NCBI GenBank assembly: GCA_030066795.1
Contig: JASJAW010000013.1
Location: 1 to 64,000, forward strand
DNA length: 64,000 nt
Source of the DNA: Dinoroseobacter sp.
Lineage (GTDB): Bacteria > Pseudomonadota > Alphaproteobacteria > Rhodobacterales > Rhodobacteraceae
Direction: 5' to 3'
Positions 16,586 through 19,474 of the stretch are shown one piece after another. Position numbers and translations under genes: made by a program. The notes under the pieces are model-generated. The model ran no database searches. It was given only the letters and a program-made list of their open reading frames with translations, and was not told the DNA's origin. Each line of letters opens with the position of its first letter. Position 1 is the stretch's first letter.

Positions 16586-17218
16586 TCAAAGTGCGGCAAG
16601 CGCGGGTTCGAGGTCGCCATATCCGGTGAAGCGATGTTCGAAGCTCAGGCCAAGTCGCGCGGCGCAGTTTCTTGCCAGTTCGATCAGGGCCGGATCGTCT
16701 GTCTGCGCCTGATAAACCAGCTTTTCGTAGTTGCCGAAGTAGCTATCGCGCAGCTCCGGGTGACGGTCGAGGCCCAGCGGGCGCCAGACAAATGCATCGA
16801 ACTGCCGCACAAGAAAGTCGGTCAGGAAAAAGGCGGTCATGTCTTCGTCATGGCGTGCGGCGAAGGCTGCGTTGCCCTCGAAAAAGCTGTAGCAATGGGG
16901 ACCGGCTACCATTTCTACGCCCAAAGCGTCGCATCGTGCCTTGAGCAATCCACCAGTGCCGCAATCTGCATAAACTACGAAGATCCGGTCAAACTTTCCT
17001 TGGGCTGCGAGGACGGCGGCTTCAACCGCGTCGGGCAATTTGTCCGGCGTCAGATGATATTTTGCGGGCAAACAGGACAGGCTTAGATGGTCCCAGCCAT
17101 TCAAGCGCTTGAGCGTCAGAATCTCGTGGGCCAACGCGCCGCAAGCGATCAGCAGGACTTGGCCGCGTCCGGGCGCAGCGATCCCGTGTTCCGTCAGCTT
17201 AGCGTCGTCGAGATCCAT
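16586..17218 (-). CDS. DUF1638 protein in the methyltransferase cluster
   Basis: A 210-residue soluble protein of the DUF1638 family. Conserved Cys and His residues occur in LIACGALAHEI, YADCGTGG and GPHCYSFFEG, a pattern that suggests a metal or cluster site, though no structure is implied here. DUF1638 genes are often found next to corrinoid methyltransferase genes, and here it is three genes downstream of a homocysteine methyltransferase and two after a corrinoid protein. That context suggests a role in methyl transfer or corrinoid maintenance; this is inference. Its ATG lies one base after the stop of the preceding small gene. Confidence 0.78.
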   Translation of the reverse strand: MDLDDAKLTEHGIAAPGRGQVLLIACGALAHEILTLKRLNGWDHLSLSCLPAKYHLTPDKLPDAVEAAVLAAQGKFDRIFVVYADCGTGGLLKARCDALGVEMVAGPHCYSFFEGNAAFAARHDEDMTAFFLTDFLVRQFDAFVWRPLGLDRHPELRDSYFGNYEKLVYQAQTDDPALIELARNCAARLGLSFEHRFTGYGDLEPALAAL

Positions 17219-17219
17219 G

Positions 17220-17405
17220 TCATTCAGGTGGTCGTCGCAGCGCCCAGAGCGCCACCGCGGCGATCATCGCAAAGAGGGATAACGCAATCAATCCGCCCCC
17301 GGCCCCCGGTGCGACATAGTCGGAAAATCCCACAGCTGTGACCACTGTTAAAGCCGCGGCCGCGAGCGGTGCAACGATCAGGATGTAAAGCAGGGAGCGT
17401 GGCAT
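17220..17405 (-). CDS. Tiny two-helix membrane protein in the methyltransferase cluster
   Basis: A 61-residue product with two predicted transmembrane helices (LLYILIVAPLAAAALTVVTAV and GGLIALSLFAMIAAVALWAL). A short Gly-rich turn links them and a basic tail RRPPE ends the protein. GGAGGC precedes the ATG. It is packed between the corrinoid gene (58-base gap) and DUF1638 (1-base gap), so co-expression is nearly certain if it is real. Family not recognised. Confidence 0.62.
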   Translation of the reverse strand: MPRSLLYILIVAPLAAAALTVVTAVGFSDYVAPGAGGGLIALSLFAMIAAVALWALRRPPE

Positions 17406-17463
17406 GGATGCCTCCTTTTGGCCTGCTTCAGATATGGGGGGCAGGACGGGGCTGGGAAACCCC

Positions 17464-18168
17464 TCAGCCTGCGGCCACCTGATTGTGTTTGCGTTTCATC
17501 AGCTCTTTGGCGGTCTCCACGGCAACGGCGGCATCCCGGCAGTAGGCGTCTGCCCCGATGGCGCGGCCAAATTCTTCGTTCAGCGGCGCGCCACCCACCA
17601 TAACAATGTAGTCTTCGCGGATCCCCTGTTCCTTCATCGTGTCGATCACGACTTTCATGTAAGGCATCGTGGTCGTCAAAAGCGCCGACATACCCACGAT
17701 GTCAGCCTCTTCACGCTTGGCGGCGTCTATATAGTTCTCAACGGGATTGTTGATGCCAAGATCGACAACTTCGAAGCCGGCACCCTCCATCATCATGGAC
17801 ACAAGGTTCTTGCCGATATCGTGGATGTCGCCTTTGACTGTGCCGATCACCATCTTGCCCATGCGAGGCGCTCCGGTTTCGGCCAGAAGCGGCTTCAGGA
17901 TCGCCATCCCGCCTTTCATCGCATTTGCCGCGAGAAGGACTTCGGGTACGAACAGAATACCATCACGGAAATCGTTGCCGACGATCGTCATGCCGGCCAC
18001 CAGAGCCTCGGTCAGGATCCTGTACGGTTCCCATCCGCGTTCGAGCAGGATGTTGACACCTTCTTCGATCTCTTCCTTGAGCCCGTCATAGAGATCGTCA
18101 TGCATCTGCAGGACCAGCTCGTCATCGGGCAGTTCCGACAGAATGATATCGTCTTCTTCGTCAGCCAT
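17464..18168 (-). CDS. B12-binding corrinoid protein (methionine-synthase-like module)
   Basis: A 234-residue protein with the two-domain layout of methyltransferase corrinoid carriers. An N-terminal helical cap (about residues 1-90, including LLERGWEPYRILTEALVAGM) is followed by a Rossmann B12-binding domain. The cobalt-ligating His is in GDIHDIGKNLV near residue 110, the DXHXXG signature; VGMSALLTTTM and VMVGGAPLNEEF complete the nucleotide-tail site. It carries a methyl group as methylcobalamin between partner proteins. Placed 122 bases after a homocysteine methyltransferase gene, it most likely serves as the B12 module of a split methionine synthase, with no full-length metH in the window. 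Confidence 0.88.
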   Translation of the reverse strand: MADEEDDIILSELPDDELVLQMHDDLYDGLKEEIEEGVNILLERGWEPYRILTEALVAGMTIVGNDFRDGILFVPEVLLAANAMKGGMAILKPLLAETGAPRMGKMVIGTVKGDIHDIGKNLVSMMMEGAGFEVVDLGINNPVENYIDAAKREEADIVGMSALLTTTMPYMKVVIDTMKEQGIREDYIVMVGGAPLNEEFGRAIGADAYCRDAAVAVETAKELMKRKHNQVAAG

Positions 18169-18290
18169 AGCTCACCTTTTGGCTCAATCGCGGGCGTTTT
18201 GATCAGATTGCCCGGAAAACGACCGCCCCTTGGTGGCGGTTTGCGACATGGCGCGCCGGTTTTTCGACCTCGCGCACCGGTTTGATCGGC

Positions 18291-19328
18291 TCAGGCGCGT
18301 CTACGACGACCTGCACGCGCCCGTGACCGGGTCGGACCGCCCTCTCCGGTGCCGTCGTCTGCGGATGAAAACCCACCAAGCGCAGCGGCGATTTCGTCAA
18401 GACTCGGCCGGACGCGCTCGGGGGCCTCATCCAGAGCAGCGCGCATGTGGCGCAAATGCTCGAAAGTGGTGCCGCAGCACCCGCCGATGATCGACGCGCC
18501 CGAGGCTCTCGCAAGCAAGGCATACTCGGCCATCAACTCCGGGGTGCCATCGTAATGGATATGTCCGTCGACATATTTCGGAATCCCCGCATTGCCTTTG
18601 GCGATAATCGGTCGCTCCGGGCCTGCCGCGGAAAAGCCGAGCACGGTCCGGAGTAGATCCGAGGCGCCAACTCCACAATTGGCACCGAAGGCCACAGGCG
18701 CGTGCGCTAGTTTTTCGAGATTGCGCACCATGTCGGCAGAGGTCACGCCCATCATCGTACGTCCGGCCGTATCGAAACTCATGGTTCCCGCCCAAGGCAT
18801 GCCCGCACGCCCCGCAGCTTCGCTGGCGGCGGCGTATTCTTCTGGGGCTGATATGGTTTCCACCCAAAGCACGTCCGCGCCGCCGGCTTTCAGGCCTTCG
18901 GCCTGTTCGTGGAACATCTCCACCGCCAGATCATGCGTAAGAGATCCCATCGGGGCCATGATCTCCCCGGTCGGGCCTATCGACCCTGCGACCACGACCG
19001 TGCGCCCCGATTTGTCGGCAACCTCGCGTCCGATTTCGGCAGCGGCCCGGTTCAGTTCCCCGACGCGGTCTTGCGCATCATGAAGCTTGAGCCGCGCAGC
19101 GTTACCTCCGAACGAATTGGTCAGAAACAGGTCAGAGCCGGCGTCGACCGCGCCCTGATAGAGCGTTTCGATCCGGTCTGGATGATCGGTGTTCCACAAC
19201 TCCGGTGCGTCGCCTGAGGACAGGCCCATGTTGAAAAGTGTTGTTCCCGTCGCTCCGTCGGTCAGCAGGACCCCTTTTTCGATCAGCAGGGCGGACAGGG
19301 CATCTGGGCCAGAAAGGTGGCCGGTCAT
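18291..19328 (-). CDS. bmt: Homocysteine S-methyltransferase (annotated family: betaine-homocysteine methyltransferase)
   Basis: A 345-residue zinc-dependent homocysteine methyltransferase. The opening DGATGTTLFNMG and the zinc Cys residues in GANCGVG and GGCCGTT match the Hcy-binding domain shared by MetH and BHMT. These proteins are commonly named Bmt, but in Phaeobacter a homologue acts as the homocysteine-binding part of a three-piece methionine synthase; the adjacent corrinoid gene makes that the better reading here. The basic tail (RSRARAGRRRRA) is unusual but in frame. AAGGA lies about nine bases before the ATG. The leader contains three strong inverted repeats. Confidence 0.87.
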   Translation of the reverse strand: MTGHLSGPDALSALLIEKGVLLTDGATGTTLFNMGLSSGDAPELWNTDHPDRIETLYQGAVDAGSDLFLTNSFGGNAARLKLHDAQDRVGELNRAAAEIGREVADKSGRTVVVAGSIGPTGEIMAPMGSLTHDLAVEMFHEQAEGLKAGGADVLWVETISAPEEYAAASEAAGRAGMPWAGTMSFDTAGRTMMGVTSADMVRNLEKLAHAPVAFGANCGVGASDLLRTVLGFSAAGPERPIIAKGNAGIPKYVDGHIHYDGTPELMAEYALLARASGASIIGGCCGTTFEHLRHMRAALDEAPERVRPSLDEIAAALGGFSSADDGTGEGGPTRSRARAGRRRRA

Positions 19329-19353
19329 GGGCAGTTCCTTTTCAACGGCAAAG

Positions 19354-19474
19354 CCCGCTCTGAGGTCAGAGCGGGATTGTTTCTGCGCCGCTTTTGACAG
19401 CCCGGCTTAGTTTAAGCAATTTCATAATTCTCATGTTTTTCATGAGATCCGTGCGTATTCGGTTTTGCGCACGG
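19354..19474 (-). promoter_or_regulatory. Structured leader or operator region of the homocysteine methyltransferase operon
   Basis: Reading toward the gene there are three inverted repeats. CCGTGCG/CGCACGG spans 19449-19474 (12-base loop). TCTCATG-AAAAA-CATGAGA spans 19429-19447 (7 bp, 5-base loop). CCCGCTCTGA/TCAGAGCGGG spans 19354-19375 (up to 10 bp) and lies 13 bases before the AAGGA ribosome site. The last could act as an attenuator or block ribosome access; the second has the symmetry of a transcription factor operator. I could not match the SAM-II core consensus as I remember it. The rest of the 19376-19526 gap holds no gene. Confidence 0.45.

Follow-up and report, generated by a model that had tools for sequence, protein, structure and literature searches.

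The 64,000-nucleotide stretch of Dinoroseobacter sp. DNA considered here (contig JASJAW010000013.1, positions 1 to 64,000; hereafter, the window) encodes, one after the other, a homocysteine S-methyltransferase module (MtgE, also named Bmt), a stand-alone corrinoid protein (MtgC), a membrane protein of 61 residues and a DUF1638 protein. This locus is likely to provide the MtgE and MtgC parts of the published split methionine synthase and glycine betaine demethylase (MtgBCDE), with DUF1638 and a RACo activase reactivating the cobalamin of MtgC; the small membrane protein is probably a neighbour and not a dedicated part of the synthase. What a first-pass annotation of the window had observed is correct, and the system is mostly known already: the split synthase and the need of DUF1638 for methionine had been described, and what is added here is the tracking of RACo and mtgC by DUF1638, a model of this protein together with its invariant residues, and the result on the small gene. 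In abundant marine bacteria, both the synthesis of methionine and the demethylation of betaine run through the module made of MtgC, RACo and DUF1638 (PMC12478193), and DUF1638 in particular bears on how a corrinoid stays active in air without the activation domain of MetH.

In Phaeobacter inhibens, Price et al. (2018) described a three-part methionine synthase whose bmt, mtgC and mtgD mutants were each rescued by methionine, as was the mutant in the DUF1638 gene (PGA1_c13340); a DUF4445/RACo protein and the DUF1638 protein were cofit with this synthase and rescued by methionine, and a reactivation of B12 was proposed, the authors stating that for DUF1638 itself they had nothing specific to propose (PMC5764234). 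According to a 2025 PNAS paper, MtgC and MtgD also act in the glycine betaine demethylation of Ruegeria pomeroyi, in which SPO2162 (DUF1638) was more abundant on N-osmolytes (PMC12478193). A DUF1638 protein of Sinorhizobium appears, in addition, in a published proteomics table.

Gene set of the split synthase

The adjacent homocysteine methyltransferase and corrinoid protein had been taken at first pass for a split methionine synthase of the Phaeobacter type, an identification that holds, the remaining set being found in the genome. A pterin-binding candidate for MtgD, namely a methyltetrahydrofolate:corrinoid methyltransferase of 321 residues, is encoded on contig C10 (near 46.1-47.1 kb), unlinked to mtgE and mtgC, and 2 kb beyond it lies the gene for the one RACo/AcsV-type (RACo/RamA-type) activase, a protein of 683 residues in which linker, middle and ASKHA domains were recognized, along with a ferredoxin-like match below threshold. 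Four proteins of the MTTB family (PF06253) are candidates for MtgB and thus, counting MtgE, MtgC and DUF1638, there is here a candidate for each published MtgBCDE part and for both reactivation proteins. The absence of metH, noted at first for the window, extends to the whole genome: the MetH activation domain (PF02965) was not found in the assembly, which is 94.9% complete (the same search gave a match in 7 of 14 control genomes), and no protein qualifies as a canonical MetH, i.e., a single chain with PF02965. Two further PF02574 proteins and a weak core-MetE-like match, the latter in a frame of 377 residues, were also found. Between mtgD and the activase gene, a DUF6778 protein (PF20569) is encoded (L118 10348-10965, genome G000, contig C10).

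The system of P. inhibens (PGA1_c13370, c13350 and c16040, plus the RamA-like c15200 and the DUF1638 gene c13340) was compared by description and locus tags, not by sequence. Common to both genomes are a PF02574 protein, a protein combining PF02607 and PF02310, an unlinked pterin-binding protein, an unlinked RACo activase, a DUF1638 gene downstream of mtgC and the lack of PF02965. By locus tags, a radical SAM gene (c13360) stands in Phaeobacter between the methyltransferase gene and mtgC, whereas in the window only 122 nucleotides separate them, and the small open reading frame goes unmentioned in the available portion of the Phaeobacter account. The MtgBCDE system of R. pomeroyi (SPO2160 for MtgC, SPO2162 for DUF1638) is similar as regards MtgC, DUF1638, MtgD, RACo and MttB-family proteins, although its mtgE (SPO1884) is, by locus tag, apart from mtgC, and both genes adjoin in the window. 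MetH of the Escherichia coli type has the same three catalytic modules as domains, but in one polypeptide with its own PF02965 activation domain, the one not found here.

In the mechanism proposed, MtgD would methylate the cob(I)alamin of MtgC from methyl-tetrahydrofolate and MtgE would hand the methyl group from MtgC to homocysteine, and MttB-family proteins would be able to load MtgC from betaine as well. With the MetH activation domain absent, oxidised MtgC cobalamin would be rescued by the ATP-driven RACo/RamA-type activase together with DUF1638. We infer that the latter acts directly on the cobalamin of MtgC, its invariant Cys and His residues perhaps holding the cobalt, or a metal or electron-transfer group, in such a way that Co(II) becomes reducible by RACo. 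The gene set, the linkage, the co-occurrence and the conserved residues are observed in the genomes themselves; the methionine need of a DUF1638 mutant would apply here by analogy with Phaeobacter, and the roles of MtgC and MtgD by analogy with Ruegeria.

DUF1638 tracks RACo and mtgC

In a class sample of 289 genomes (whose DUF1638 carriers include, besides the present genome, three from the same family), 53 genomes gave a match to DUF1638, 65 to RACo and 52 to both (Fisher p 1e-43, phylogeny ignored); when only strong, long-type RACo matches are counted, 50 genomes have both, 3 have DUF1638 only and 6 have RACo only. This is accompanied by physical linkage, with RACo within 10 kb of 30 of the 55 DUF1638 copies and mtgC flanking DUF1638 in 27 of the 29 class loci examined (stretches of at most about 3.5 kb covered 30 of the 55 copies, and the one of the window was left out). 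No association was found between DUF1638 and PF02965 in the 289 genomes, since 24 of the 53 DUF1638 genomes carry the latter (Fisher p 0.22, phylogeny ignored), and DUF1638 was rejected as a marker of 'no MetH' on this ground. As DUF1638 tracks RACo and mtgC and not the metH status, it would serve the corrinoid protein, or the MtgC-RACo module, rather than methionine synthesis as such.

Annotated plasmid records, of which four of the ten with a match were examined, give the same picture at the level of gene order. The arrangement mtgC-DUF1638-...-MTHFR C-terminal domain-metF-mtgD-ASKHA/RACo is found in records of Sinorhizobium, Paracoccus and Azoarcus, with a trimethylamine methyltransferase family gene in the Sinorhizobium and Paracoccus stretches, betaine transporter genes in those of Sinorhizobium and Azoarcus, and bmt near the module in the Sinorhizobium record; in two of the records, the operons are of the betaine type, and the 10 kb around their DUF1638 gene contain no annotated mtgE. 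Two of the roles first considered for DUF1638, methyl donor delivery and metal supply, fit less well with a protein that tracks RACo and mtgC even beside an ordinary MetH and in such betaine-type operons. One form of metal supply would be that DUF1638 provides MtgE, the homocysteine module, with zinc; in its favour, MtgE-type proteins need zinc and the Cys and His residues of DUF1638 are invariant. This is nonetheless extremely unlikely, given that DUF1638 follows mtgC and RACo in the contexts just mentioned and that heterologously expressed Phaeobacter Bmt was active (PMC12366255). In viral contigs, 49 pattern matches to DUF1638 were obtained and none was confirmed.

Invariant residues and predicted fold of DUF1638

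Cys26, His55, Asp85, Cys86, His108, Cys109, Asp134 and Gln172 are invariant in 30 class-wide and 81 closer sequences (the one of the window belongs to both sets) and also in four sequences from plasmid records, that of the betaproteobacterial Azoarcus included, so that the conserved Cys/His sites pointed out at first pass (C26, H55, C86, H108 and C109) are real. An AlphaFold2 model based on the 81 sequences (predicted local distance difference test score, pLDDT, 91.4; predicted template modelling score, pTM, 0.82) gives DUF1638 an alpha/beta, Rossmann-like fold with six main strands. In folds of this kind, active sites usually lie past the C-terminal ends of the strands. Counting by sequence position in the predicted model, 19 of the 35 invariant residues fall 0-6 positions past the C-terminal end of a main strand, versus 7 expected, and C26, H55, C86, D134 and Q172 are among them; H108 and C109 come after a two-residue strand that was left uncounted.

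In fold searches with this model, Foldseek returned nothing at E<=1e-3 (the best match, an ornithine carbamoyltransferase, had E 2e-3, and template modelling (TM) scores were low), VIA gave a top Z of 7.1 for a ManX-type domain, within the range of the tool for common arrangements, followed by carboxylesterase, succinyl-CoA synthetase and Asp/Glu racemases, and a sequence search of solved structures yielded nothing below E 0.25. The Asp/Glu racemase superfamily is characterized by two pseudo-symmetric Rossmann-like domains and paired catalytic Cys residues; residues 18-104 of DUF1638 align with its first domain with a Z of about 6, also within the common-arrangement range, and no racemase is among the four weak sequence matches. 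As no fold match stands out, no family is given to DUF1638.

A tentative proposal is that DUF1638 is a new kind of cobalamin handler, Rossmann-like and with no clear structural relatives, whose invariant Cys26, Cys86, Cys109, His55 and His108 might ligate, on the cobalamin bound to MtgC, either the cobalt or a metal that relays electrons, so that RACo could re-reduce this cobalamin in aerobic cells, and that RACo activation usually has DUF1638 as its partner in alphaproteobacteria with this module. A rather doubtful alternative is that DUF1638 acts as a chaperone that loads cobalamin into MtgC or removes its upper ligand, before and separately from the reduction by RACo and with the cysteines ligating cobalt, a function for which the likeness to human CblC/CblD can be invoked. 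The adjacency of mtgC and DUF1638 in nearly all the class loci and the invariance of three Cys and two His are in line with it. So is the argument of Price et al. against a role of DUF1638 in B12 synthesis, based on the fact that B12 synthesis genes look essential and DUF1638 does not (PMC5764234). Against it, the near-identical distribution of DUF1638 and RACo points to the reactivation step and not to general loading, and, as weaker evidence, none of the sequence and fold searches tied DUF1638 to any cobalamin chaperone already known (the fact that these proteins did not turn up in the fold lists is not itself counted as evidence). Given the confident model and the short list of invariant residues, a handful of point mutants could put the role of DUF1638 to the test.

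The 61-residue membrane protein

The small frame of the window ranks first among its 1234 stop-to-stop frames (E 3.8e-5) when searched with a profile built without the window, and in seven hand-picked pairs of relatives (an eighth differed in length) the nonsynonymous rate (dN) is below the synonymous one (dS), with a ratio of about 0.02 to 0.36. A chance frame was rejected on these two grounds, and this is a real, conserved and selected family gene, whose relatives have about 49-75 residues, start with MP and share a conserved AA.

Among the relatives' loci (the best 80 of 590 confirmed stretches, all from close relatives), the place between mtgC and DUF1638 is taken by the small gene in 33 of the 74 with mtgC upstream; in two additional loci the gene is at the edge of a contig. 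That count is partly circular, because part of these loci had gone into the profile behind it, and it accepts any in-place match (32 have E<=0.0004; the weakest, L057, has E 0.15). The profile that leaves the window out and the whole-genome search are fairer, although the alignment used genome-wide still holds the window and 24 of those loci. In 120 genomes of the family, this search gave 60 matches at E<=0.01, of which the 49 at E<=1e-3 (about 40%) were used; 43 of them lie directly upstream of DUF1638, a gene present in 112 of the genomes. The 11 weaker matches are mostly in long frames, except that those of G298 and G384 are in place upstream of DUF1638, and the profile may miss diverged copies. 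Regarding the other six of the 49, that of G310 is at a contig end beside mtgC and that of G292, within a 541-residue frame, is probably false. In the remaining four genomes (G311, G334, G375 and G381, all at least 99% complete) the small gene is kept, DUF1638 and mtgC were not detected, and the search for MtgC-like proteins hit only the B12 domain, at 33-35% identity, of a MetH with PF02965. The 13-kb stretches around the small gene in G311 and G375 gave no match to mtgE, mtgC, DUF1638, MtgD, RACo or MTTB.

The first-pass annotation had considered both the small protein and DUF1638 as accessory to the synthase, the former as a membrane anchor or delivery part. For DUF1638, an accessory role stands and was published before (Price et al., 2018). 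For the small protein, its position in the relatives' loci, the purifying selection and the genome-wide placing upstream of DUF1638 agree with such a role, which is nevertheless very unlikely: the 26 loci of the class sample that come from other families gave no match, of the 112 family genomes with DUF1638, 69 show no small gene beside it at E<=1e-3 (diverged copies may have escaped, and two matches above this threshold are in place), and the gene persists in the four genomes where mtgC and DUF1638 were not detected and MetH has its activation domain, which makes a dedicated role improbable. The small frame was rejected as a part of the synthase because of these four genomes and should be dropped from its model, and DUF1638 is now a better-defined target; operon position alone would have misled the annotation.

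Other arrangements were seen around these genes. In G334, MetH is split in another manner, into two adjacent open reading frames (L139 1614-5453): a homocysteine module of 368 residues and the rest, with the activation domain, of 907 residues. A radical SAM gene of the PA0069 family is found beside the small frame or mtgC in three genomes (L131 6725-7873, L133 5401-6552 and L134 4898-5845), in two of which mtgC and DUF1638 were not found: it adjoins the small gene in G334, with an mtgE-like gene also near, and in G381, and it flanks mtgC in G310. The Phaeobacter operon likewise has a radical SAM gene, known here from the locus description and not matched to that family. In one Ruegeria genome, a Hint-domain protein (PF13403) is encoded between mtgC and DUF1638 (L117 8870-9904), and the corresponding gap is similarly long in five other Ruegeria loci.

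Evidence against the proposed role

Several observations weigh against a reactivation of MtgC by DUF1638 and RACo as part of a split synthase. All the functional statements on the present organism are transferred, by analogy, from Phaeobacter and Ruegeria, and the fold of DUF1638, for which Foldseek gave no significant relative, says nothing on its chemistry. The fourth plasmid record has the mtgC-DUF1638 pair alone, with no RACo annotated within 10 kb, and, conversely, 13 of the 65 RACo genomes of the class sample lack DUF1638, among them six with a strong long-type RACo (of which G109 and G176 are at least 90% complete). Two genomes of the family sample, G377 (97% complete) and G321 (74%), encode an MtgC of 81-83% identity with no DUF1638 detected, and neither mtgE nor DUF1638 was matched near their mtgC (L136 7744-8463 and L137 6076-6783, respectively); the need for DUF1638 is therefore not absolute, and some lineages of the family with small genomes do without it, or use something undetected. 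As for the small gene, its placing beside DUF1638 in most of its matches is also what a functional link would give, which is offset by the four mtgC-less genomes.

The role of MtgE is affected by a 2025 FEBS J paper, according to which methionine is formed in vitro by purified, heterologously expressed Phaeobacter Bmt directly from betaine or dimethylsulfoniopropionate (DMSP), while some residual growth without methionine was seen in the bmt mutant (PMC12366255); both facts count against the assignment to a split synthase. They would favour, together with the four MTTB genes of the genome, that MtgE is here mainly a stand-alone betaine/DMSP:homocysteine methyltransferase and that mtgC-DUF1638 serves mainly betaine demethylation. 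This is unlikely, as MtgE-type proteins, unlike the Bhmt of SAR11, do not retain the betaine-binding residues of human Bhmt, according to the PNAS paper (PMC12478193), and methionine rescues the Phaeobacter bmt, mtgC and mtgD mutants alike (PMC5764234).

Layout of the locus and upstream elements

The coordinates of the four frames and the gaps of 58 bases and 1 base given at first pass were confirmed (Table 1); from mtgE to DUF1638, the intergenic distances are 122, 58 and 1 nucleotides. The best NCBIfam scores of MtgC are for MtgC/MtbC-like models, yet below cut-off: the glycine betaine corrinoid MtgC models NF047996 and NF047995 gave 200.9 bits (cut-off 370) and 176.1 bits (cut-off 310). DUF1638 was identified through Pfam only, not NCBIfam, and the small frame has no Pfam or NCBIfam family above cut-off.

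Table 1. Features of the mtgE-mtgC locus in the window
Feature	Position	Strand	Evidence and remarks
mtgE/bmt, homocysteine S-methyltransferase module, 345 residues	18291..19328	minus	PF02574, 207 bits; NCBIfam NF005718, 586.9 bits (cut-off 338)
mtgC, stand-alone corrinoid (cobalamin-binding) protein, 234 residues	17464..18168	minus	PF02607, 62.8 bits, and PF02310, 94.4 bits; GDIHDIG present
Two-helix membrane protein, 61 residues	17220..17405	minus	profile, synteny, dN<dS in relatives; AAAAGGAGG directly 5' of the ATG
DUF1638, 210 residues, predicted cobalamin-activation helper of MtgC	16586..17218	minus	PF07796, 104 bits (cut-off 27); AlphaFold2; conserved Cys/His
Hotdog thioesterase	16521-16057	minus-strand order, after DUF1638	64-nucleotide gap from DUF1638
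Possible operator, a conserved motif 5' of mtgE (CTCATGAAAAACATGAGAATTATGAAATTGC in the window)	19416..19446	minus	motif count in related upstream regions

Upstream of mtgE, a 13-nucleotide inverted repeat lies at 19351-19378, for which a conserved hairpin is not claimed: in a crude scan of 51 relatives, stems of at least 9 were found in 7, at varying positions. Rfam gave no match around the locus or at the conserved motif. The latter (cTCATnATcatcATGAaGATTATGAATTTGCc) is present in the window and in 32 of 52 related regions, and at most 3 mismatches to GATTATGAATTTGC are found in 33 of 53 regions (window included) versus 0.35 in mononucleotide shuffles, the motif having been picked from the same regions. 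It is possibly an operator of the MetR or SahR type, and bhmT is among the genome-specific MetR targets described in Rhodobacterales (PMC4239095).

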